Shown here: in pieces, positions 29,998 to 40,540 of the stretch
Layout: each line of letters begins with the position of its first letter
How positions within the stretch are numbered: position 1 is the first letter of the stretch
Assembly (NCBI RefSeq): GCF_000372745.1
Contig: NZ_KB889688.1
Coordinates: forward strand, 1 to 64,000
Origin: Embleya scabrispora DSM 41855
Lineage (GTDB): Bacteria; Actinomycetota; Actinomycetes; Streptomycetales; Streptomycetaceae
Length of the DNA stretch: 64,000 bases
Reading direction: 5' to 3'
The notes under the pieces: generated by a model
Seen by the model: only the letters and a program-made list of their open reading frames with translations
Database searches by the model: none
Told to the model about the DNA's origin: nothing
Translations under genes and position numbers: made by a program

Positions 29998-30627
29998 ATG
30001 TCACAGCCGCAACGTCTGGTCCGGGCCTGGTCGGTGCGCGCGGGGGCCGCGCGCACGCAGGTGGAAGCCGGGGCGCGGGCGCGACGATGGTTGTGGTTTC
30101 GCGAGGCTTTCCCGGACATCGAGCGGCTGCGGGTGGTGGACCTGGGCGGTTCGGCCGAGTTCTGGTGGCACGCCCCGGTGCGGCCCGCGCACGTGCGCGT
30201 GGTCGAGAGCGCGGGCAAATCCGCCGAGTCGGCCTCGTGGCTGGTCCATGAGCCGGCCGATCCGCTGGAGTGGTCCGGGAGTTGCGACCTGGTGGTGTGC
30301 GACGGGCTGCTCGATCGGTTGGCCGCGCCGACCGCCCGGGCCCGGTTGGCCGATGTCGTGCACGCCTCGGCGGAGCGCTACTGGCTGCGTACCGCCGCCC
30401 GGGAGCACCCGCTCGATCCGCAGACCTCGTTGCCCGCGCTGCACCTGATGCCCGGTCACCTGCGGTCGCGGATCGGCGGATCGACGCCCCGGGTGTTTCC
30501 GGCCCGGCGTGGCGAGTTGGTCTCGCGCTTTCCCGGGGCGGTGGTGCGCGGCGAGCGGGTGGCCGGGCTCGTGTCGTCGTGGGTGGTGGCCAAGCCACGT
30601 GCCGATCACGTGCCCGGCCGCCCCTGA
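29998..30627 (+). CDS. SAM-methyltransferase-like protein
   Basis: A 209-residue protein. After a basic helix (ARARRWLWFREAFPDIE) comes a Rossmann opening RLRVVDLGGSAEFW, resembling class I methyltransferase motif I. CDLVVCDGLLDRL (motif IV-like) and a late region with YWLRTAAREHPLDP follow. In such cluster proteins the latter positions an acceptor. Several SAM-binding positions are atypical, so activity is uncertain. It lies 56 bp upstream of a UDP-sugar dehydrogenase on the same strand and opposite a sugar-nucleotide operon. A role in modifying the same glycan is plausible. Confidence 0.55.
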   Translation: MSQPQRLVRAWSVRAGAARTQVEAGARARRWLWFREAFPDIERLRVVDLGGSAEFWWHAPVRPAHVRVVESAGKSAESASWLVHEPADPLEWSGSCDLVVCDGLLDRLAAPTARARLADVVHASAERYWLRTAAREHPLDPQTSLPALHLMPGHLRSRIGGSTPRVFPARRGELVSRFPGAVVRGERVAGLVSSWVVAKPRADHVPGRP

Positions 30628-30683
30628 CGTTGCATCACCAGCCGCTCGGGGGTGGGCGGTTGCGCGAGGAGGGGGAGTCTCGG

Positions 30684-31940
30684 ATGCGTGTTGTCATCGC
30701 CGGTCAGGGTTATGTGGGGCTGCCGCTGGCGGTTCGGGCCGCCCAGGTGGGTCACGAGGTGGTCGGCTACGACGTCGACGAGGGGCGGGTCAAGCGGTTG
30801 GCGGCGGGTGAGTCCTACGTCGAGGACATCCCGTCCGCGCACGTGCGGGCGATCCTGGACGCGGGCAGTTACCGCGCCACCGCCGAGCCGCGCGATCTGG
30901 GCGGCTTCGACATCGCGGTGATCACCGTGCCCACGCCGCTGCGCGAGGGCGTCCCGGACCTGAGCTACATCGAGGAGTGCGCGAGCACGCTGGCCCGATA
31001 TCTGCGGCCCGGCGCGTGCGTGGTGCTCGAATCGACCACCTATCCGGGCACCACCGAGGAGTTGGTCGGTCCGATCCTGGCGGAGGGCTCGGGCCTGACC
31101 GTGGGTCGCGACTTCCACCTGGGCTACAGCCCGGAGCGGATCGACCCGGGCAACCCCACCTGGAACCTGGTCAACACGCCGAAAGTGGTCTCCGGGGTGG
31201 ACGCCGCCTCGCTGGCGGTCGTGGAGGACTTCTACGGTTCGTTGATCGACCGCGTCGTGCCGGTCTCCTCGCCGAAGGAGGCCGAGTTGGTCAAGTTGAT
31301 CGAGAACACCTTCCGGCACGTGAACATCGCGCTCGTCAACGAGGTCGCGATGTTCGCCCACGACCTGGGCATCGACGTGTGGGAGGCGATCGACGCGTGC
31401 TCGACCAAGCCGTTCGGCTTCCTGCGCTTCACCCCGGGGCCGGGGGTCGGCGGGCACTGCCTGCCGATCGACCCGTCGTACCTGTCCTGGCGGGTGCAGC
31501 GGGCGCTCGGCCAGAGCTTTCGTTTCGTGGAGTTGGCCAACGACGTCAACAACCACATGCCGGACTACGTGATTCGCCGACTCACCGCCGCGTTCAACAC
31601 CCGGCGTCGATCGGTCAACGGCTCCCGGGTGTTGCTGGTGGGACTCGCCTACAAGAAGAACACCGGCGACGCTCGGGAGTCGCCGTCCACGCACGTGGCC
31701 CGGTTGTTGCTGAACCTGGGCGCGGAGGTCACCGCCGTCGACCCGCACGTGGACCTCGCGCAGGTCGTGGACGCCCGGTTGCGGCGGGTGGAGTTGACCG
31801 CGGCGACGGTGGCCGCCGCGGACGCGGTGGTGCTGCTCGTGGATCACGACGACGTCGATCTGGATCTGCTGCGTGCCGCCGACTATGTGCTCGACTGCCG
31901 ACGGGTACTCGGCGCGGGCCCCAACATCGAGGTGCTGTAG
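30684..31940 (+). CDS. UDP-N-acetylhexosamine 6-dehydrogenase (WbpA/WecC type)
   Basis: A 418-residue enzyme oxidising C6 of a UDP-amino sugar to the uronic acid with two NAD+. Seen: the N-terminal NAD fold VVIAGQGYVGLPLA, the Thr-Pro motif TVPTPL, the catalytic Lys region PKEAELVKLIENTFRHVNIA, and the catalytic Cys259 in PGVGGHCLPIDP. The C-terminal sugar-binding domain has LLVGLAYKKNTGDARESPS. ATG 30684 follows a GGAGGGGGAG ribosome binding site. It should supply UDP-HexNAcA to the oxidoreductase, aminotransferases and acetyltransferase encoded on the opposite strand at 34-39 kb. Whether the substrate is UDP-GlcNAc or UDP-ManNAc is not decided by sequence alone. Confidence 0.88.
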   Translation: MRVVIAGQGYVGLPLAVRAAQVGHEVVGYDVDEGRVKRLAAGESYVEDIPSAHVRAILDAGSYRATAEPRDLGGFDIAVITVPTPLREGVPDLSYIEECASTLARYLRPGACVVLESTTYPGTTEELVGPILAEGSGLTVGRDFHLGYSPERIDPGNPTWNLVNTPKVVSGVDAASLAVVEDFYGSLIDRVVPVSSPKEAELVKLIENTFRHVNIALVNEVAMFAHDLGIDVWEAIDACSTKPFGFLRFTPGPGVGGHCLPIDPSYLSWRVQRALGQSFRFVELANDVNNHMPDYVIRRLTAAFNTRRRSVNGSRVLLVGLAYKKNTGDARESPSTHVARLLLNLGAEVTAVDPHVDLAQVVDARLRRVELTAATVAAADAVVLLVDHDDVDLDLLRAADYVLDCRRVLGAGPNIEVL

Positions 31941-31959
31941 GGCCGTTCCGGCCCGTCGG

Positions 31960-31994
31960 GCGCCCGGTGGTCGTGGATGTCGATCACCGGGCGC
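31960..31994. terminator. Terminator after the UDP-sugar dehydrogenase
   Basis: GCGCCCGGTG (31960-31969) and CACCGGGCGC (31985-31994) form a perfect 10-bp stem with a 15-base loop, 19 bases past the stop. Confidence 0.65.
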
Positions 31995-32082
31995 GGCTTC
32001 GCCCCGCGCCCGCTCGTGCCTGGTCGAACGTTGCTCGGACCTGCTCGGACCCACTCGTCTTCGGGCGGCCGTGACCCGTCGA

Positions 32083-32238
32083 CTACCTGTACTCGATGAT
32101 CTTCGTCTTGTGCCCGGTGGCCTTGGTGTGCGCCTTGGCCGCCACCTGCGCCGCGTCCTTCGACCGGTACCGCTGGCGGGCGCCGTCGGTCTTCGACGGA
32201 CAACCGTTCTCCTGGCAGATCCATCCCCAGGTGCTCAT
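32083..32238 (-). CDS. C2H2-like zinc-finger microprotein (51 aa)
   Basis: A 51-residue protein starting at ATG 32238: MSTWGWICQENGC, then a basic linker, ending KAHTKATGHKTKIIEYR. Cys8 and Cys13 with His37 and His43 give a C-x4-C-x23-H-x5-H layout. The helix AAQVAAKAHTKATGHKT strongly resembles the helix of a classical C2H2 finger. I know no named family for it. It sits alone between two convergent arms of the sugar-nucleotide region, downstream of the Rieske gene and a 372-bp spacer. A DNA- or RNA-binding or structural role is possible, with no direct evidence. Confidence 0.55.
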   Translation of the reverse strand: MSTWGWICQENGCPSKTDGARQRYRSKDAAQVAAKAHTKATGHKTKIIEYR

Positions 32239-32610
32239 GGACAACCTCCAGCCATCGCAGGCGCCACTCCCGTCCCGGTCGGGAACACGAATGACTCGGA
32301 CGGCCACACCGCAGCACCTGCAGCCGCCGCGTGGCCGACACTCGGCACGCCATGACACGCTCGTGACGGAACCCGGACGTTTCGGAGAAAAACGTTTTCC
32401 TTTTGAATGCCTAACGCGTCGCAACCGACATACAAAGGATGCAATATCGCGATCAATTATCTTATCTAACAAATAGGGCGAACGAGTGACGCAGGCTCCC
32501 TCGCAGGAGTGACGGCCCATCAGACGAGCAGGGCGGCTGCCGACGTGGCGCGGGACGCGATGTCAACGCCGCGAGTTCGCACGCGTGTCTTGAGCGATCG
32601 GCGGCGACTG
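32239..32610. other. Non-coding spacer with an AT-rich island
   Basis: No gene is visible. 32384-32476 is conspicuously AT-rich for this chromosome. It includes the palindromic core AAAACGTTTT (about 32389-32398) and a run near 32451-32475 (GATCAATTATCTTATC, AACAAATAG). It can hold the promoter of the 51-residue gene on the minus strand (TTGTTAGATAAG... as a -35 candidate). No -10/-35 pair is convincing. Confidence 0.4.
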
Positions 32611-34134
32611 TCACCGATCCGGGACATCGGGGCCGGCCGGCTCGACCCGCAGCGGCACGGTGCCGCCCGCTACGCACTCGCCCGTGTCCAGGCGCCACTT
32701 CCAGTGGTGGCGCGGACACTCCAGCACACCGGCCGCGATGTCCGCGTGCGACAGGTCCTCGCCGGCGTGCGGACAAAATCGCTGCATCCGCACCCCGCAC
32801 CGCCGAATCGACTCGCCGTGCGCGGCCGATTCGCGTTCGCGGACCATCTGCATGGTCTGCGCCGGGTGTTCGCCGTAGCGCAGCAGACTCATCAGGGTCA
32901 GGTCGAACACGTCCGGATCGCGGGCCAGGCCCAGGCGCATGGACAGCAACGCCTCCTCCCACCCCACCGCACCGTCCACGATCGCGCGCAACACCCGCTG
33001 CGGGACCTCGATCGTGTAGGCGGGGTCGACCGGTTCCTCCTCGAACACGATGTCACCCGCGATCCGGCCCAGCCGCACCGACCAGGAACCGCCGTCCGAG
33101 GTCAGCCGTACGTCCTTGCGCCAGTCGCCCAGAAAGCGCTTGTTCCAGCTCTGCAACCGGGCCAGGTAGGCGTCCAGTTCGGCCGGGGCGACCGGCTCGA
33201 ACTCCCGTTCCGCATAGGCCCGCCACTCGGCCTCACGGCGGTCCCGATAGGCGCTCAGGTACGCGTCGGTGCGCCAGTGCGCCACCGGGCCCGAGGGTGC
33301 GCCGAGGTCGTCGCCCGGTGCGGCCTCGATCACCCGCACCCGCGGACAGGCCGCGGCGAAGTCGTCGGCGAACGCGTCCCACAGCGGGAAGATCGTCTCG
33401 TCCCGATCGTTGTACCGGGCGAGTTCCGGATCCAGGAACACCGGCGGACCCGCCGACGGCAGGTAGGCGCGCGCACCGGTCAGTCGGACCTTGCGCACCA
33501 GCGTGTCGAACAGGTCCGAGCGCACCTCGGCGGTCTTCTTGCGCTGGGTCTCCTCCGGATACGCATATGCGTTCGGGTACCACATCGCACCGGAGAACTG
33601 CGCGGACAACAGGTCGATGTCACCCGGGAGTTCGCCGAGCGGGGTGTTGCAGTCGTTGAGGTCCAGGAAGCGGTAGCCGTCCAGGTCGACGAGCAGGCCG
33701 CTGTCCTCCTTGTGGCTGGTGTCCAGCAGCATGGTCAGGGTCAGCCCCGGCGCGGGCGTGAACGACTCGCGATGGCCGAGCACCACCTGCTCGTGAAAGC
33801 CCAGCGCGCTCATCCGCTTGACCAGCGACCTGGACCGATACCGGGGCAACACCACGGTGATGTCCCGGTCGAGTTGCTCCAGTACGCGTTCGTCGAAGTG
33901 GTCCTCGTGCAGGTGTGAGAGATAGAGCAGGTCGTATCGGCCGGCCAGCACCTCGGGCAACAACTCGCGATTGTCCGGGAACGGGAACCACGCGCCGAGG
34001 AAGGCGGGATGGAACCACGGGTCGATCAGCAGCGAGACGCCCGCGTGGGCGACCACGAAGCCCGCGTGGCCGAGATGGCGGATCGTGCCGGGCGCCGGCA
34101 GGCACGCCGGTCCGTCGTCGGGCCCGGGGCTCAC
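32611..34134 (-). CDS. MBL-fold/Rieske protein, CMAH/NamH-like hydroxylase
   Basis: A 507-residue protein combining two metal domains. The N-terminal metallo-beta-lactamase fold has HLHEDH at residues 74-79 (His74, His76, Asp78, His79) inside YDLLYLSHLHEDHFDE. The C-terminal Rieske [2Fe-2S] motif is CPH (Cys454, His456) and CPRHH (Cys473, His476), C-x-H-x16-C-x2-H. CMP-Neu5Ac hydroxylase and UDP-MurNAc hydroxylase NamH pair an MBL-like domain with a Rieske cluster to turn N-acetyl into N-glycolyl sugars. By analogy this enzyme may hydroxylate an N-acyl group of the cluster's sugar nucleotide. The GTG 34134 overlaps the stop of the aminotransferase (GTGA). Last gene of the operon. Confidence 0.65.
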   Translation of the reverse strand: MSPGPDDGPACLPAPGTIRHLGHAGFVVAHAGVSLLIDPWFHPAFLGAWFPFPDNRELLPEVLAGRYDLLYLSHLHEDHFDERVLEQLDRDITVVLPRYRSRSLVKRMSALGFHEQVVLGHRESFTPAPGLTLTMLLDTSHKEDSGLLVDLDGYRFLDLNDCNTPLGELPGDIDLLSAQFSGAMWYPNAYAYPEETQRKKTAEVRSDLFDTLVRKVRLTGARAYLPSAGPPVFLDPELARYNDRDETIFPLWDAFADDFAAACPRVRVIEAAPGDDLGAPSGPVAHWRTDAYLSAYRDRREAEWRAYAEREFEPVAPAELDAYLARLQSWNKRFLGDWRKDVRLTSDGGSWSVRLGRIAGDIVFEEEPVDPAYTIEVPQRVLRAIVDGAVGWEEALLSMRLGLARDPDVFDLTLMSLLRYGEHPAQTMQMVRERESAAHGESIRRCGVRMQRFCPHAGEDLSHADIAAGVLECPRHHWKWRLDTGECVAGGTVPLRVEPAGPDVPDR

Positions 34135-35267
34135 AGCCGGCTCAGCGCTCCCGCGAGCACCTCCACGACGCGCTCCTGCTGCGACGCGGTCAGCTGCGGG
34201 TACAGCGGCAACGTCAGGATCTGTTCGGCGGCCCGCTCGGCCACCGGGAAGTCGCCTCGCGCGTAGCCCAGTTCGGCGAAGGCCGGTTGCAGGTGCACCG
34301 GCACGGGATAGTGCACGCCGGCACCGACGCCGGCCTCGTTCAGCAACGCGAGCACCTTGTCCCGCTCGGGCACCCGGACCGCGTACAGGTGCCACACGTG
34401 CTCGTTGCCCGGCGCGGTGCCCGGCACCCGCACCTCCTGAACGCCGGCGAGCAGCGCGTCGTAGCGGGCCGCCGCCGCCCGCCGCCGGACGTTCCAGTCG
34501 GCGAGTCGGCGCAGCTTGGCGCGCAGCACCACGGCCTGGATGGTGTCCAGGCGTGAGTTGAAGCCCAGGCGCGTGTGCACGTACTTGCGCGACGACCCGT
34601 GGTCGCGCATCTCGCGCACCGCCGAGGCGTAGTCCTCGTCGCCGGTCACCACCGCGCCGCCGTCGCCGTACGCGCCCAGGTTCTTGCCCGGGTAGAAGCT
34701 GGTCGCCGCGATGGCCTCCGGCCCCCACGCGCCGGGGCCGATGCCGTCCTGGGTCGCGCCCTGGCACTGCGCGGCGTCCTCGACCAGGGACACCCCGCGC
34801 GCCTGCGCCAGCGCCCGCAGCGCGCCCATCGGGGCCAGCTGCCCGTTCAGGTGTACCGGCACCACGGCGCGGGCCTCGACCGGGCCGTTCAGCGCCTCGG
34901 CGGCCCGCTGCGGGTCCAGCAGGAGGAACTCGTCGTCCACGTCCGCGAACACCGGCCGCGCGCCCGCTCGGACGGCCGCCTCGGCGGTCGCCACGAACGT
35001 GTTCGCGGGCATCACCACACCCGCGCCCGCGCCCACCCCCAGCACCCGCAGCGCCAGTTCCACGGCGTCCGTACCGTTGGCCACCCCGACGCAGTGCGCG
35101 ACGCCGGTGAATTGGGCGTACTCGGCCTCGAAGCCCGCGACGTCGGGGCCGCCGACGAACGCGCACGTGGCCAGCACCCGGGCGATGCCGGCCTCGACCT
35201 CGCCGGCCACCTCGGCATGCGCGGCGGCCAGGTCCACCAACGGAATCCGGTCCAGGTCAGCACTCAT
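34131..35267 (-). CDS. DegT/DnrJ-family sugar aminotransferase (WbpE/FdtB-like)
   Basis: A 378-residue PLP enzyme that transaminates a keto sugar nucleotide, usually at C3 in this clade. Seen: the opening IPLVDLAAAHAEV with GGPDVAGFEAEYAQF, CVGVANGTDAVELALRV, the PLP Asp region LVEDAAQCQGA, the Schiff-base Lys in SFYPGKNLGAYGDGG, and GVHYPVPVHLQPAF near the C-terminus. ATG 35267 has GAGGGGGAG six bases upstream; ATG 35273 overlaps that site. It follows the acetyltransferase gene with an 11-base overlap and couples to the Rieske gene. A role in making 3-amino-uronate is inferred from the Gfo/Idh and 6-dehydrogenase neighbours. Confidence 0.88.
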   Translation of the reverse strand: MSADLDRIPLVDLAAAHAEVAGEVEAGIARVLATCAFVGGPDVAGFEAEYAQFTGVAHCVGVANGTDAVELALRVLGVGAGAGVVMPANTFVATAEAAVRAGARPVFADVDDEFLLLDPQRAAEALNGPVEARAVVPVHLNGQLAPMGALRALAQARGVSLVEDAAQCQGATQDGIGPGAWGPEAIAATSFYPGKNLGAYGDGGAVVTGDEDYASAVREMRDHGSSRKYVHTRLGFNSRLDTIQAVVLRAKLRRLADWNVRRRAAAARYDALLAGVQEVRVPGTAPGNEHVWHLYAVRVPERDKVLALLNEAGVGAGVHYPVPVHLQPAFAELGYARGDFPVAERAAEQILTLPLYPQLTASQQERVVEVLAGALSRL

Positions 35268-35967
35268 CCGCATCTCCCCCTCGTGGTATCCCGACAGTGG
35301 CGGGGGTCGGCGCCGACCGCAGCCGGCGGGCCGGCACCCCCGCCCACACCTCGGCCGGCGGCACATCCCGCGTCACGACCGAGCCCATCCCCACCAGCGA
35401 CCGGGCACCGATGGTGCGTCGCTCGCGCACCAGCGCACCGGCTCCCAGGTACGCCTCCCGGCCCACCGTCACCGCGCCCGCCAGCCGCACTCCCGCGGCC
35501 AGCGTGGCGAAGTCGCCCACGTCGTCGTCGTGGGTCAGCACCACCTGCGGCATGGTGTGCGCGTGCGCTCCCACCCGGACCGAGGTGGTCAACACCGTCT
35601 GCGCCATCAGCACCGCGCCCGGACCGACCTCGCACGTACGCGGAACCACCGCGCTCACGTGCACGAGCGTGGCCCAGCGGGTGTCCGGCAGGCCCAACCG
35701 GGCCACCACCCGCGAGCGACTCCACCAGTTCGTCGGACTCCCGACGCACACCACCACCAGCGCGTCCGGCCACTTGTGCACCGCGTCCGCACCGCCGAGC
35801 ACCGGGAAGCCGTCCACCTCGGTGTGCCATCGGGCCGGATCCTCGTCCAGGAAACCGAGCAGCCGCCATCCCGAACTCCCGCGCGGCGCACGAAAATCCG
35901 GTATGGCCGCGGCAACCTCCCGGGCGAACCCGCCGGCGCCGACCAACAGCAGATCGCGAAAGGACAC
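35257..35967 (-). CDS. NeuD/PglD-like sugar O/N-acetyltransferase
   Basis: A 236-residue protein with the two-part NeuD/PglD architecture. An N-terminal Rossmann-like sugar-nucleotide domain (LLLVGAGGFAREVAAAI; GFLDEDPARW) is followed by a left-handed beta-helix of hexapeptide repeats (from VGPGAVLMAQTVLTTSVRVGA to GMGSVVTRDVPPAEVWAGVPAR). His in the loop near VVLTHDDDVGDF matches the catalytic His position. These enzymes use acetyl-CoA to acetylate an amino sugar nucleotide (UDP-4-amino or 3-amino). GTG 35967 overlaps the TAG of the preceding aminotransferase by one base. It lies between two aminotransferase genes, either of which could supply its substrate. Confidence 0.87.
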   Translation of the reverse strand: MSFRDLLLVGAGGFAREVAAAIPDFRAPRGSSGWRLLGFLDEDPARWHTEVDGFPVLGGADAVHKWPDALVVVCVGSPTNWWSRSRVVARLGLPDTRWATLVHVSAVVPRTCEVGPGAVLMAQTVLTTSVRVGAHAHTMPQVVLTHDDDVGDFATLAAGVRLAGAVTVGREAYLGAGALVRERRTIGARSLVGMGSVVTRDVPPAEVWAGVPARRLRSAPTPATVGIPRGGDADEC

Positions 35968-37130
35968 TAGACCGCCGCCCGGACGCCGGCCGCGGCCCGC
36001 ACCGCGGCGACCACCCGGTCCTGCTGTGCCTCGGTCAAATCGTGGAACAGCGGCAGGATCAGCGAGTCCCGGGTCAGCCGCTCGGTGGCGGGCAGCGGCA
36101 CGTGTTCGACGTCGGCATAGGCCGGTTCCAGATGCGCGGCCATGATCCCGCGCCGCGCCGAGATGCCCGCCCGGGCCAGTTCCCCGAGCAGGTCGTCGCG
36201 CGACATCGGGAAGTCCTCGGGCAGCAGCACCCAGAACGCCTGATAGTTGGTCAGCCCGTGGGCCGGATCGGCCGCCGTCTCCAACCCGGCCACCCCGGCG
36301 AGCAACTCACGGTATCGAGCCGCCAGTTCTCGACGCCTGGCGACCATCGCGGGCAGCCGGCCCAACTGCACCAGGCCGACCGCCGCCTGGATGTCGGTCA
36401 TCCGGTAGTTGAAGCCGAGTTCGTCGTAGCTCTCCACCACCGGCGCACCGCCCGCGCGATCCGCCGCGTCCCGATCGGCCGCGCTCACGCTCATCCCGTG
36501 CTCGCGCAACCGGCGCAGCCGCGGTGCCGCGCTCTCGCGCGCGAGCGTGAGCATGCCGCCCTCGCCGGTGGTCAGCAGTTTGCGCGGGTGGAAGGAGAAC
36601 GTCGCGGACATCGCCCCGGCGCCCACCGGACGACCCCGGTACGTCGAGCCCGCCGCGCACGCCGCGTCCTCCACCACCACGATGCCGCGGGCGTCCACCA
36701 GCGCCCGCACACCGTCCAGGTCGGCCGGAATGCCGCCCTGGTCGACCAGGATCACCGCGCGCGTCGCGGCGGTGAGCACCGGCTCGATCGTCTGCGGACT
36801 CAGGTTCCCGGTGGCGAGCTCGACATCGGCGAACACCGGGCGCGCGCCCACGTAGCGCACCGCGTTGGCGGTGGCCACGAAGGACAGCGACGGCACCACG
36901 ACCTCGTCACCCGGCCCCACACCGGCGTTGATCAGTGCCAGATGCAGCGCCGTGGTGCACGAGGACACGGCGATCGCCGCGGGCACCTCGACATACTCCG
37001 CGAACGCCCGCTCGAAGGCGGCCACCCGAGGTCCCTGGGCCACCCACCCGGAGCGCACCGCGTCCGCCGCGGCAACGGCCTCCTCCTCGCCCATCCAGGG
37101 CCGCATCACCGGAATTCGTTCCATGCTCAT
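35967..37130 (-). CDS. DegT/DnrJ-family sugar aminotransferase (PglE-like)
   Basis: A 387-residue PLP aminotransferase of the sugar-nucleotide type. Seen: the opening IPVMRPWMGEEEAVAAADAV with SGWVAQGPRVAAFE, AIAVSSCTTALHLAL, the PLP region VVVEDAACAAGSTY, Lys in SFHPRKLLTTGEGGM, and RMTDIQAAVGLVQL. The pattern RKLLTTGEGG and the PglD-like neighbour favour a 4-amino-forming clade such as PglE, but this is not certain. ATG 37130 has GGGGAAGG four bases upstream; ATG 37124 is an alternative. It begins 97 bp after the epimerase gene and is coupled to the acetyltransferase. Confidence 0.87.
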   Translation of the reverse strand: MSMERIPVMRPWMGEEEAVAAADAVRSGWVAQGPRVAAFERAFAEYVEVPAAIAVSSCTTALHLALINAGVGPGDEVVVPSLSFVATANAVRYVGARPVFADVELATGNLSPQTIEPVLTAATRAVILVDQGGIPADLDGVRALVDARGIVVVEDAACAAGSTYRGRPVGAGAMSATFSFHPRKLLTTGEGGMLTLARESAAPRLRRLREHGMSVSAADRDAADRAGGAPVVESYDELGFNYRMTDIQAAVGLVQLGRLPAMVARRRELAARYRELLAGVAGLETAADPAHGLTNYQAFWVLLPEDFPMSRDDLLGELARAGISARRGIMAAHLEPAYADVEHVPLPATERLTRDSLILPLFHDLTEAQQDRVVAAVRAAAGVRAAV

Positions 37131-37227
37131 CGTGCCTTCCCCCAGTCCGGTCGCCCGCCCATACCCGTCCCGCCCGCGTCCGCCCCGCACCCGGTACCCA
37201 CCGAACCCCCTCGGTGCCCCGATCGGC

Positions 37228-38193
37228 TCAGACCGCGTCCCGCCACCACGCCACCAGTCGGCGCAGCCCCTCGTCGATGTCCACCTCCGCGGTGAAGCCC
37301 AACTCCCTCGCGGCCTTGGTGGTATCGGCCAGTCGCCGGGTCACCCCACCGCTCGCGCGCGCCGGGCCGTACTCGATGCCCAGCCCGTCCGCGCCCATCA
37401 CCGCCAGCAGCCGCTCGGCCAGTCCGCGCAGCGAAGTCTCGCTCCCGGACGCGATGTTGAACACTTCTCCGGCGGCATCGGCTTGCGCGGCAAGGAGGTT
37501 GGCACGTGCGATGTCCTCGGTGTACACGAAGTCCATGGTCTGCAGGCCGTCGCCGAAGATCAACGGGGGTTCCCCCTTGCCGATCCGCTCCATCCAGCGG
37601 ATCAGCACCTCGGTGTACAGGCCGTGCACGTCCATCCGCGGGCCGTAGACGTTGAAGTAGCGCAGCGCCACGTAGTCCAGGCCGTACATCGCCCGGAAGC
37701 TGCGCAGCAGGCCCTCGTTGAACAGCTTGGCCGCGCCGTAGAGCGTGTCGTTGTCGTACGGGTGGTGCAGCTCGGTGGTCGGGAACTGTTCGGCGAGCCC
37801 GTAGACCGACGCCGAGGAGGAGGTGACCACCTTGCGCACGTCGGCGGCGACCGCCGCCTCCATGACGTCGTAGGTGCCGTCCACGAGCACCTCCAGCGCG
37901 AGCCGGGGTTCCTCCACGCACTGCGTGATCCGGATCGCGGCGAGGTGGAAGAGCACATCGGCGCCCGGCATCAGCCGGGCCAGCAGCGGCCGGTCGCGGA
38001 TGTCGCCGTCGACCAGCTCGACCCGCTCGTCGGTCAGCGCCGCGGCCAGGTTGCCCCGGTGCCCGCGGGTCAGGTTGTCCAGGACGACCACCCGCGCGGC
38101 CCCGGCGGCGAGCAGCCGGTCGACGATCGTGGACCCGATGGTCCCCGCGCCGCCGGTGACCACACAGCGCGAACCGGCGATCTCGACACCCAT
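37228..38193 (-). CDS. NAD-dependent sugar epimerase/dehydratase (SDR)
   Basis: A 321-residue extended SDR. Seen: the NAD motif VVTGGAGTIGSTIVDRLL, Asp-Asn after the second strand (VVLDNLTRGH), LFHLAAI, the catalytic Ser-Ser region TSSSASVYG and the YxxxK pair in YGAAKLFNE. The substrate-binding motif RYFNVYGPRM and C-terminal FNIASGSETSL follow. It is closest in pattern to GalE/WbpP-type UDP-HexNAc 4-epimerases rather than to the 4,6-dehydratases. ATG 38193 overlaps the stop of the Gfo/Idh gene (TGATG). Confidence 0.85.
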   Translation of the reverse strand: MGVEIAGSRCVVTGGAGTIGSTIVDRLLAAGAARVVVLDNLTRGHRGNLAAALTDERVELVDGDIRDRPLLARLMPGADVLFHLAAIRITQCVEEPRLALEVLVDGTYDVMEAAVAADVRKVVTSSSASVYGLAEQFPTTELHHPYDNDTLYGAAKLFNEGLLRSFRAMYGLDYVALRYFNVYGPRMDVHGLYTEVLIRWMERIGKGEPPLIFGDGLQTMDFVYTEDIARANLLAAQADAAGEVFNIASGSETSLRGLAERLLAVMGADGLGIEYGPARASGGVTRRLADTTKAARELGFTAEVDIDEGLRRLVAWWRDAV

Positions 38194-39251
38194 CAGAGTT
38201 CTCCCACCGCGACGGTGGCGCCGCCCAGGTCCAGGCTGCGCGAGGCGGCCTCCAACAGTTCCAGTACCCGCAGACCCGCGCGACCGTCGGTCAGCGCCGG
38301 CCGGGACGTGCCGATCGCGTCGGCGAACTCGGCCATCACCGCGCGCAGCGCCTCCCGCTCGGGCAGCGCGGGCGAGACCACGTCGCCCACCCGGTAGGAG
38401 ATCAGCTTCTCCCGCCGCGCCTCCCGGCTGAGCGCGGCGTCCTCGGCGAGGTCGATGCCCTTGTCGTGCACCTGGAGTCGGGCCGCGGGATTGGTGTCGT
38501 CCCACACCAGGGTGCGCCGGGAGCCGCCGATGATGGTGGTGCGCACCTTGGTCGGCGAGAGCCAGTTCACATGCACGTGTGCGATGGCCTCGTTGCTCAG
38601 CCGCAACACCAGGTAGGCCAGGCAGGCCCGGCCGGTGCCGAGCGGGTCCGCGCCGTGGGCCGCCACCGACACCGGGCGCACCCCGGGCGGCAGGATGAAG
38701 TCCAGGATGGACAGATCGTGCGGCGCGAGGTCCCACAACACGTCCACGTCCGGCTGGACCAGGCCCAGGTTGATCCGTACCGAGTCGAAGAAGCGGATGT
38801 CGCCCAGCTCGCCGCCGTGGATCAGCTCGCGGATGTACCGGACCACCGGCATGTAGCAGAACGTGTGATCGCACATCAGCGTCAGCCCGTTGCGCTCGGC
38901 CAGTTCGACCAGCTTGACCGCGTCCGCGTGCTCGGCCGTGATCGGCTTCTCGACCAGGACGTGCTTGCCCGCCTCCAGCGCCGCCGCGACCAGCTCGAAG
39001 TGCGTCGCGGCCGGCGTCGCGATCGCCACGGCGTGCACCGCGGGGTCGGCGAGCACCTCCTGATAGGACGTGCTCACCCGGACGGTGCTGTAATCCCCCA
39101 GCACCGCACGGGCCCGCGCCTCGTCGAGATCACACAGCCATTCCAGCCGCAGAGCCGGTGTGGCCTGCGCGTTGCGCACCAGATTGGGGCCCCAGTAGCC
39201 GGCCCCTATGACGGCGAGCCCGATGGCTCGCCCAGACCCGGAATTCGACAT
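38193..39251 (-). CDS. Gfo/Idh/MocA oxidoreductase (WbpB-like)
   Basis: A 352-residue NAD-dependent dehydrogenase. The Rossmann start is IGLAVIGAGYWGPNLVRN, with the signature GKHVLVEKPITAEHADA (the EKP motif). The C-terminal domain shows RFFDSVRINLGLVQPDVDVLWDLAPHDLSIL, a pattern I associate with the WbpB/WlbA clade that oxidises C3 of UDP-GlcNAcA. It heads the minus-strand sugar operon; all downstream genes except one are joined by overlaps. Its partner is the UDP-sugar 6-dehydrogenase at 30.7 kb, which would make its substrate. A myo-inositol-type substrate cannot be excluded from sequence alone. Confidence 0.85.
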   Translation of the reverse strand: MSNSGSGRAIGLAVIGAGYWGPNLVRNAQATPALRLEWLCDLDEARARAVLGDYSTVRVSTSYQEVLADPAVHAVAIATPAATHFELVAAALEAGKHVLVEKPITAEHADAVKLVELAERNGLTLMCDHTFCYMPVVRYIRELIHGGELGDIRFFDSVRINLGLVQPDVDVLWDLAPHDLSILDFILPPGVRPVSVAAHGADPLGTGRACLAYLVLRLSNEAIAHVHVNWLSPTKVRTTIIGGSRRTLVWDDTNPAARLQVHDKGIDLAEDAALSREARREKLISYRVGDVVSPALPEREALRAVMAEFADAIGTSRPALTDGRAGLRVLELLEAASRSLDLGGATVAVGEL

Positions 39252-39540: not shown

Positions 39541-40056
39541 GTGGCCGCGGGTACTCCGACGACGACACTGGCGAAGGAACGTACGGCGGAAGTGGATCCG
39601 GAACTCGAACCGGCGGGTCCCGACCCGCGCGAGAGGGGTGCGCCCGGGGGCACCCGCGAGAGCATCCTCCCGGCCGTGGCGGCCGCGCTGTTCATCGGCA
39701 AGCGCATCCGCACCCGGGCCGGTGCCAAGGGCGACACCGTGCCGACGGCGCATCCGCTGGTCCGGGACTTCCTGATGGCCCTCCCGGTCGAGGCACGCGA
39801 GCGCTGGCGGGGCCGCTGCCCCGAGGTCGAGCTGGTGTCCGAGCACCTTTTCGAGGCCGAGGCGGCGCGCACCAAGCGGGCGGCCCGGCGGCCGTTCACC
39901 GTGCAGGAGGCACGACGCTCGCTCAAGGGGGCCAAGCTGACCCTGCGCCGGATCCGCGAGGACGGCGACCCACGACACGACACGTATCAACCGCCGTGTC
40001 GATCCTGCGCACCGATGCTCGAACACTTCGGCGTCGCGCCGACGGAAAGCGGCTGA
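39541..40056 (+). CDS. YwqJ-type nucleic-acid/nucleotide deaminase-like protein
   Basis: A 171-residue protein with a deaminase-fold zinc signature: Cys93-Pro-Glu95 (in GRCPEVELVSEHLF) as the C-x-E half, and PPCRSC (Cys153, Cys156) as the C-x2-C half. This is the spacing of YwqJ-family deaminases, known as toxin tips or as free-standing copies in actinomycetes. All predicted zinc ligands and the catalytic Glu are present, so it may be active. There is no signal peptide or secretion domain. The GTG start 39541 has AAGGGA upstream. A SUKH-3 gene begins one base after the stop. Confidence 0.72.
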   Translation: MAAGTPTTTLAKERTAEVDPELEPAGPDPRERGAPGGTRESILPAVAAALFIGKRIRTRAGAKGDTVPTAHPLVRDFLMALPVEARERWRGRCPEVELVSEHLFEAEAARTKRAARRPFTVQEARRSLKGAKLTLRRIREDGDPRHDTYQPPCRSCAPMLEHFGVAPTESG

Positions 40057-40057
40057 C

Positions 40058-40540
40058 GTGTCCCGCTTCTCCACCGACGTGGTGCACGAACTCAAGCGGG
40101 CCGGCTGGACCGTGGGTCGACGCCGGCTGGCCCAGGCCGAGGCGTGGGCCCGGCAGATCAGCGACCACGAGTCGCCCGACGGGCACCGGCACAGCGTGTT
40201 CCCGGCGGCGCTGGTGGCCTGGGCCGAGTTCGGCACGCTGCACTTCGCCATCGGCGGCGCGGGCAAGGACGTGCTCCGCCGACCCTTCACCATCGACCCC
40301 ACCCGAGGGCTGCACCTGCCGCGCACGCTCACCGACGTGGGCCGCGCGCTGGGCACCCCGCTGGCCCCGCTGGGCGACGAGGACGACGGCAGCAGCTATC
40401 TGGCGATCGACCCGAGCGGCCGGGTGTTCGGCCTGGACCACACCGGCGAGTGGTTCATCGGCTCGTCGATGGACACCGCGATCAGCACGCTGGTCCTGGG
40501 GCTGGCGCCGGTGCGCATCCGCGACAACGGGCGCTGGTAG
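40058..40540 (+). CDS. SUKH-3-domain protein (immunity-type)
   Basis: A 160-residue protein of the SUKH (SMI1/KNR4) superfamily, subgroup 3. The features are an N-terminal helix pair (DVVHELKRAGWTVGRRRLAQAEAWA), the LVAWAEFGTLHFAIGG core and the C-terminal YLAIDPSGRVFGLDHTGEWFIGSSMDTAI. SUKH proteins commonly neutralise nuclease or deaminase toxins. GTG 40058 lies one base after the deaminase stop, so the two are co-translated, supporting a dedicated partnership. Confidence 0.78.
   Translation: MSRFSTDVVHELKRAGWTVGRRRLAQAEAWARQISDHESPDGHRHSVFPAALVAWAEFGTLHFAIGGAGKDVLRRPFTIDPTRGLHLPRTLTDVGRALGTPLAPLGDEDDGSSYLAIDPSGRVFGLDHTGEWFIGSSMDTAISTLVLGLAPVRIRDNGRW

Follow-up and report, generated by a model that had tools for sequence, protein, structure and literature searches.

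An amino-sugar operon of Embleya scabrispora encoding a metallo-beta-lactamase/Rieske protein of the NamH type

To our knowledge, only two hydroxylases that turn N-acetyl into N-glycolyl groups are known, NamH and CMAH. NamH, the N-acetylmuramic acid hydroxylase of mycobacteria and their relatives, acts on UDP-N-acetylmuramic acid (UDP-MurNAc); humans differ from other mammals in having lost CMAH. The subject here is a NamH-like protein of the soil actinomycete Embleya scabrispora DSM 41855, which is encoded in an operon of sugar-nucleotide genes within a stretch of 64,000 nucleotides (the window; contig NZ_KB889688.1, 54 genes called, genome size 11.39 Mb). The protein has an N-terminal metallo-beta-lactamase (MBL) domain of the UlaG type and a C-terminal Rieske domain. 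CMAH also possesses a Rieske part but, differing from the Embleya protein, has it first in its domain order. For NamH, the order found in Embleya is described, together with the conversion of N-acetyl to N-glycolyl groups (PMC10050696). The metal and 2Fe-2S ligands are likewise those of NamH; what separates the Embleya protein from it is its position in a distinct, long-stemmed clade, the occurrence of this clade beside NamH-like paralogues in two genomes and its tie to a cassette of amino-sugar genes. CMAH is described as an MBL-fold oxygenase acting on the N-acetyl group of a nucleotide sugar, CMP-N-acetylneuraminic acid (PMC4819959), and is likened to the Embleya protein by this description.

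The other genes of the operon resemble described routes in part. With the WbpA-WbpB-WbpE-WbpD pathway they share a 6-dehydrogenase, a Gfo/Idh oxidoreductase and a DegT aminotransferase of related families, but Embleya has a second DegT protein, a short-chain dehydrogenase/reductase (SDR) and an acyltransferase of the NeuD/PglD type, and the 6-dehydrogenase is not constant. GnnA and GnnB, which convert UDP-N-acetylglucosamine (UDP-GlcNAc) to its 3-amino derivative UDP-GlcNAc3N, form a similar tandem of Gfo/Idh and DegT proteins. The Embleya Gfo protein matches 7bvj and, below the cut-off, the UDP-GlcNAc 3-dehydrogenase model NF040723; unlike GnnA/GnnB, however, the operon would add C4-type amination, acylation and hydroxylation. 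In Psychrobacter cryohalolentis, 2,3,4-triacetamido-2,3,4-trideoxy-L-arabinose carries amines at C2, C3 and C4, but this sugar is a pentose, it is likened here by the sugar alone, and the part of the paper at hand mentions no hydroxylase (PMC8040287). A pairing of an N-glycolyl hydroxylase with an amino-sugar cassette was not found described in the literature searched, most subscription papers lying outside its scope, and the word Rieske was not found in the available part of a paper on an Actinoplanes exopolysaccharide (PMC13390465). The Embleya genes form a genuine, conserved operon of amino-sugar genes, and its oxygenase stems from a separate clade of the NamH type. The product is probably a di- or triamino sugar in nucleotide-activated form, of which one N-acetyl group would then be hydroxylated to N-glycolyl.

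Gene content and conservation of the operon

The genes of the region, with their positions in the window, are the following:

29998-30627, plus strand: methyltransferase-like gene (label from a look at the sequence only)
30684-31940, plus strand: UDP-N-acetylhexosamine 6-dehydrogenase-like gene (Pfam UDPG_MGDP_dh; TIGR03026 with 405 bits, cut-off 189.8)
32611-34134, minus strand: MBL-Rieske protein of 507 amino acids, proposed N-acyl hydroxylase (Pfam Lactamase_B_3 and Rieske; GTG start)
34131-35267, minus strand: DegT2 aminotransferase (Pfam DegT; closest solved relatives 2oga, QdtB and WbpE)
35257-35967, minus strand: sugar N-acyltransferase of the NeuD/PglD/VioB type (Pfam PglD_N and Hexapep; TIGR03570 with 182.5 bits, cut-off 160.8)
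35967-37130, minus strand: DegT1 aminotransferase (Pfam DegT; ATG start taken; closest solved relatives ArnB and perosamine synthetase)
37228-38193, minus strand: extended SDR, epimerase (GalE)-like (Pfam Epimerase; motifs SASVYG, YGAAK and RRLAD)
38193-39251, minus strand: Gfo/Idh/MocA oxidoreductase, proposed sugar-nucleotide 3-dehydrogenase (Pfam GFO_IDH_MocA)

All eight reading frames are open. The genes named in the original prediction, which had been made from the letters of the window, were found at their positions, and their family assignments hold in Pfam and NCBIfam; the methyltransferase-like protein gave no match in these two collections. Its statement that the last six genes lie on one strand and are mostly coupled by overlaps proved correct as well. 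The run on the minus strand (32611-39251) has the order Gfo, SDR, DegT1, NeuD, DegT2 and MBL-Rieske, and four of its five junctions overlap, by 1, 1, 11 and 4 bases, the 4 bases being shared by the GTG start of the MBL-Rieske gene and the DegT2 stop. Only SDR and DegT1 are separated, by a gap of 97 bases.

The same eight genes were found in the same order in all four Embleya genomes, with protein identities of 78-95%. Ratios of non-synonymous to synonymous substitution rates (dN/dS) were 0.02-0.29 against the locus L111 and 0.02-0.33 against L113; the dS values, obtained with an experimental module, were uneven (0.3-2.9), and only the direction of selection was used. The eight-gene set is under purifying selection. 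Because of the synteny in all genomes of the genus, the identity values and the low dN/dS, the grouping of the genes is more than chance.

The oxygenase clade and its link to the amino-sugar cassette

Pfam placed the MBL domain at residues 18-121 and the Rieske domain at residues 450-489. The ligands (HxHxDH, D161 and Rieske CxH...CxxH) are intact in all 20 aligned rows of the clade to which the Embleya protein belongs, and in 60-63 of the 63 other rows. In a tree of 83 sequences, the 20 clade rows, which stem from 19 genomes since Embleya hyalina was counted twice in tree and ligand alignment, are monophyletic with a support of 1.0 and a stem of 1.02. Thirty-two positions are specific to the clade, being kept in 19-20 of its rows and different in most others; six of them are gaps there. 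The identity between the Embleya protein and the non-clade rows of the alignment amounts to 27-34%. The locus L184 was left out of the alignment, and Nocardia loci and other genomes served as stand-ins for a named mycobacterial NamH sequence.

The MBL-Rieske family as a whole is broad, with a match at E <= 1e-20 in 37 of the 396 genomes of the phylum (own genome included); in two further families within the order, 15 genomes have best matches of 32-39%. In a named scan, which was not exhaustive, 9 of the 80 loci kept stood at 55-91% identity, the other 71 showing 34% or less. Among the matches listed, the nine are Embleya hyalina, Microbispora triticiradicis, a Sphaerisporangium metagenome-assembled genome (MAG), Amycolatopsis sacchari, Amycolatopsis xylanica, Gordonia rhizosphera, a Gemmataceae MAG, Rhizobium subbaraonis and Pseudaminobacter soli. 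Searches of the family of A. sacchari (which we take to be Pseudonocardiaceae) and of that of Microbispora (presumably Streptosporangiaceae) added three and four clade genomes, respectively, giving 4 of 297 and 6 of 250 in all. Sixteen clade genomes were searched whole. In 14 of them the clade member is the only homologue at E <= 1e-15, and a second homologue is present in G. rhizosphera (G635; 38% identity) and in the genome G1031 (35%). The search of the own genome gave no further full MBL-Rieske protein; the second row (E 0.02) spans Rieske residues only. Because of the separate, supported clade and the second homologue in two clade genomes, the Embleya protein appears to be a paralogue of the NamH type and not NamH itself.

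The neighbourhoods fetched from the 19 clade genomes contained DegT2 in 19 cases, DegT1 and SDR in 18 each, an intact Gfo gene in 17 (the hybrid Gfo of Rhizobium being counted apart) and NeuD in 12. A small hexapeptide protein of one kind or another, a GTb-type glycosyltransferase, a flippase and a DUF4082/DMFA2_C protein were each present in 11. Presence was set by identity cut-offs in a script, and the references for glycosyltransferase, flippase, hexapeptide and DUF4082 proteins were taken from clade loci, rows with 100% being self matches; genes outside the window were called by a script of our own. In 16 of the 19 genomes, Gfo, SDR, DegT1 and DegT2 all lie within 18.2 kb of the oxygenase. 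Searched whole, the eight non-Embleya genomes of the named scan each revealed an SDR ortholog with 56-75% identity and nothing else above 40%. The linkage extends beyond actinobacteria to a planctomycete MAG, and relatives of the methyltransferase-like protein occur near the oxygenase in G633 and G1012 (38% and 32%).

Outside the clade, the full cassette set was found in none of the 107 other MBL-Rieske loci that gave rows. The controls were 38 loci holding other homologues; rows were obtained for 36 of these, L083 and L084 showing no match. Several loci of the scan are short contigs, on which missing neighbours are weak evidence. The possibility raised with the original prediction, that the Rieske protein occurs mostly without the other genes, does not apply to the clade, in which SDR and both DegT genes accompany it in 18 of 19 genomes, but it does describe the wider family, in which none of the 71 non-clade loci gave a Gfo match. 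The view that the genes form a conserved unit for an amino-sugar nucleotide, to which a NamH-type MBL-Rieske protein is tied, is upheld.

Some further arrangements were observed around oxygenase genes. In Rhizobium subbaraonis (L194:4119-5051), a single open reading frame (ORF) joins a WecC/WbpA-type NAD domain of ~150 amino acids to the C-terminal half of Gfo, by a real deletion or by an assembly join. Legionella santicrucis (L130, 3843-11602) offers another case of an MBL-Rieske gene inside a polysaccharide operon; the gene is outside the clade and comes after PelD, PelF-like, PelG and SDR genes. Directly upstream of the oxygenase on L115 and L116 there are POR_N and TPP_C genes of the 2-oxoacid:ferredoxin oxidoreductase type, and similar genes, judged by size and place only, precede it on L245, L247 and L249. 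It is possible that these neighbours are an electron source or an inherited neighbourhood.

Proposed chemistry and competing explanations

Among solved structures, the closest relative of DegT2 is 2oga (320 bits), which we take to be DesV, followed by a 'glutamine--scyllo-inositol transaminase', QdtB and WbpE (272 bits). DesV, QdtB and WbpE are C3 aminotransferases. ArnB (242 bits) and then perosamine synthetase, both of them C4 aminotransferases, are the best relatives of DegT1. A pair of C3-type and C4-type aminotransferases suggests a di- or triamino sugar. The NeuD/PglD-type protein matched VioB best in the PDB, and next pilin-glycosylation and perosamine N-acetyltransferases. The top match of Gfo is a putative oxidoreductase; 7bvj, presumably GnnA, and 6jw6/6nor, presumably KanD2 and GenD2, are close to it, all three being C3 oxidases. 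Gfo scores far below equivalog cut-offs. The TSE triad, which precedes YxxxK in most SDR decarboxylases (PMC10338323), is not present in the SDR, whose motif has no Glu. In place of the triad, SAS was read in 27 of 29 rows (E. hyalina counted twice), the motif being unreadable for the script in the other two. A canonical SDR decarboxylase was rejected as the triad is absent, but the point is not conclusive because the Glu of EvdS6 is described as replaceable without loss (PMC10338323). The SDR is probably a 4-epimerase or 4-oxidoreductase.

From these assignments we infer a route in which Gfo/Idh would oxidise C3 of a UDP-N-acetylhexosamine (UDP-HexNAc) and DegT2 would aminate this position. 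The SDR would act at C4, either epimerising it or releasing a 4-keto sugar, and the amine at C4 would come from DegT1. One new amine would be N-acylated by the NeuD/PglD-type enzyme. Finally, the MBL-Rieske protein would turn N-acetyl into N-glycolyl by adding a single oxygen to the methyl of an acyl group, its Rieske centre relaying the electrons, and the finished sugar would enter a surface or exopolysaccharide. A first guess for the hydroxylated site is the 3-acetamido group, because the contexts in G1031 and of the Embleya type share a C3-type aminotransferase and a hexapeptide acyltransferase; the fetched Embleya stretches contain no small hexapeptide gene.

Several points weigh against this route. 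The enzymatic activity is a prediction. There is one acyltransferase in the Embleya operon for two new amines, and no residues in the SDR account for the release of a 4-keto sugar, which leaves the C4 amination unexplained. In a predicted model of the MBL-Rieske protein (mean pLDDT 85.9, pTM 0.87; alignment of 37 sequences, drawing on 36 of the 80 scan loci), the MBL domain matched a Thermotoga MBL protein in the top row (Z 20.4, root mean square deviation 2.5, 207 residues aligned), in a tie with CmlA (20.3, 3.1, 224), and then FrsH (19.0, 3.2, 228), with NAPE-PLD and other hydrolases close behind, while Foldseek ranked FrsH first by E-value. Among the structure rows shown, of which a fifth or more span residues 13-304 only, no entry combined MBL and Rieske domains. 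Because the Thermotoga protein and CmlA tie and hydrolases follow closely, the modelled fold alone would not be diagnostic of an oxygenase, nor does the match separate oxygenases from hydrolases. Sugar genes as loose neighbours are also seen outside the clade: relatives of other window genes occur in 8 of the 71 non-clade loci, all at 45% or less, and in 2 of the 36 control loci (L077 with a 35% Gfo stretch, L091 with DegT2 at 31% and the dehydrogenase at 30%). Within the clade, the oxygenase of Rhizobium and of Pseudaminobacter is located on a different contig from the cassette, and the Gfo of Rhizobium is a hybrid. In G1031, no Gfo, SDR or DegT1 gene was found at 40% identity or more in the 80 kb fetched; the oxygenase has a 68% relative of the 6-dehydrogenase on one side and RmlA-like, RmlB-like, FdtA-hexapeptide fusion, GT2 and DegT2-type genes on the other (L251), the latter probably a dTDP-3-acetamido-hexose cluster, RmlA and RmlB being named from a look at the sequence and the Pfam family. 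Lastly, no glycosyltransferase was found beside the operon in the fetched Embleya neighbourhoods.

The original prediction had suggested WbpA-WbpB-WbpE-(WbpD) chemistry, with a UDP-2,3-diacetamido uronic acid as the substrate of N-glycolylation. This is rather unlikely. It is true that the UDP-HexNAc 6-dehydrogenase is adjacent in all four Embleya genomes and stands beside the oxygenase in G1031, that DegT2 resembles WbpE and that Rhizobium joins a WecC-type NAD domain to a Gfo remnant. However, DegT2 is closer to 2oga, Gfo stays below the equivalog cut-offs, the second, C4-type aminotransferase would be left without a role, and the fetched Embleya stretches contain an acyltransferase of the NeuD/PglD type only, with no small WbpD-like one. 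No WbpB entry was recognised among the best 60 of 87 PDB sequences for Gfo, although Gfo may still be of the WbpB type. At E <= 1e-60, the 6-dehydrogenase is absent from 6 of the 16 clade genomes. Because it is not a constant partner, the uronic-acid half is possible for Embleya and not general.

An unlikely product is also a decarboxylated pentose related to the Psychrobacter sugar, which would be made by 6-oxidation, 3-amination, 4-oxidation with loss of CO2 by the SDR and ArnB-like 4-amination. ArnB is the best solved relative of DegT1, the number of enzymes fits, and the SDR has RR in the loop holding the conserved Arg of SDR decarboxylases, as judged by an alignment by eye with ArnA. Against this, SAS replaces the TSE triad in all 27 readable SDR rows, and the 6-dehydrogenase is not constant. 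The sugar itself is known in nature from the Psychrobacter O-antigen (PMC8040287), and EvdS6 makes the point of the triad inconclusive (PMC10338323).

It is quite improbable that the MBL-Rieske protein is simply Embleya's own NamH, hydroxylating UDP-MurNAc for peptidoglycan and placed by a sugar operon by accident. This would agree with the domain order and ligands, with the protein being the only full MBL-Rieske protein found in its genome and with the 14 clade genomes devoid of another homologue. On the other hand, the separate clade, the coexistence of a clade member and a second homologue in G635 and G1031, the clade-specific positions and gaps, the overlap with DegT2 and the linkage in planctomycete and actinobacterial genomes argue against it, and clade and paralogues disfavour an identity with the peptidoglycan enzyme. 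Just as improbable is that the enzyme targets a carbon of the sugar or an amine (C-hydroxylation or N-oxygenation) and not the acyl methyl group, which would suit the clade-particular residues, the equally good match of the MBL domain to the beta-hydroxylase CmlA and the rank of FrsH, but the characterised MBL and Rieske relatives known to us, NamH and CMAH, make N-glycolyl groups.

Possible users of the sugar, and the cassette without the oxygenase

In other clade genera, glycosyltransferases, Wzy_C, Polysacc_synt_3, Wzt and formyltransferase genes are neighbours, and relatives of a GTb-type glycosyltransferase and of a flippase lie in the fetched neighbourhood of 11 of the 15 other clade genomes. 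Because of these neighbours and of a Bac_transf priming transferase in oxygenase-free loci (both of the two examined), the amino sugar would be destined for a surface polysaccharide. The window had been noted to hold no glycosyltransferase or flippase, which, for the reference set used, is borne out by a partial check (0 of 54 window genes matched at E 1e-6). For Embleya, the conclusion that genes elsewhere must use the sugar is in keeping with the findings; the 11 genomes have such relatives nearby. Each Embleya genome has one GTb homologue at E <= 1e-10, located away from the operon. In the window genome, this only GTb homologue is located within a polysaccharide region on contig C47 (1-79600; L257-L260), which also holds two DUF4082/DMFA2-similar proteins, an SDR, a NeuD-type protein, glycosyltransferases and an ABC transporter. 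The region is a candidate user of the sugar, with a putative tie to the operon.

On one flank, the operon region is bordered by mfd and an aldehyde dehydrogenase-like gene, and on the other by a YwqJ/SUKH pair followed by pth and an L25 gene. The pair (39541-40540), a YwqJ-type deaminase and then a SUKH-3 immunity protein, is likely a toxin-immunity pair adjoining the operon. Between the oxygenase and 6-dehydrogenase genes there is an ORF of 51 amino acids (32083-32238, minus strand); a gene of 51 amino acids was called at the matching place in E. hyalina (L114:11866-12021), and both are known from position and size alone.

The cassette is not restricted to genomes with the oxygenase. Of the 297 genomes in the A. 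sacchari family, 87 contain the SDR, and all four with the oxygenase are among them (one-sided p = 0.007, relatedness ignored). Twelve oxygenase-free SDR loci chosen from 83 (L233-L244) contained Gfo and DegT1 in all cases, DegT2 and NeuD in 11 each, and a hexapeptide protein and a DUF4082/DMFA2-type protein in nine each; the stretch of L234 ends before DegT2. The gene content and order of this common cassette is Gfo-SDR-DegT1-NeuD-DegT2-hexapeptide. Because it mostly occurs without the oxygenase (4 of the 87 SDR-bearing genomes have it), the oxygenase is accessory; it looks like an optional decoration enzyme, the cassette being the commoner thing. This is a common actinobacterial cassette, for which no description was found in the literature searched.

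As a tentative proposal, the clade may represent a third N-glycolylating enzyme beside CMAH and NamH, acting on a nucleotide 2,3- or 2,3,4-(acylamino) sugar, and some actinobacteria, rhizobia and planctomycetes may carry a coat polysaccharide with an N-glycolyl di- or triamino sugar, of which the literature searched gave no description. If true, this would mean a new substrate for such an enzyme and a new sugar of bacterial surfaces, and it would offer a set for comparing how MBL-Rieske oxygenases choose their substrates.

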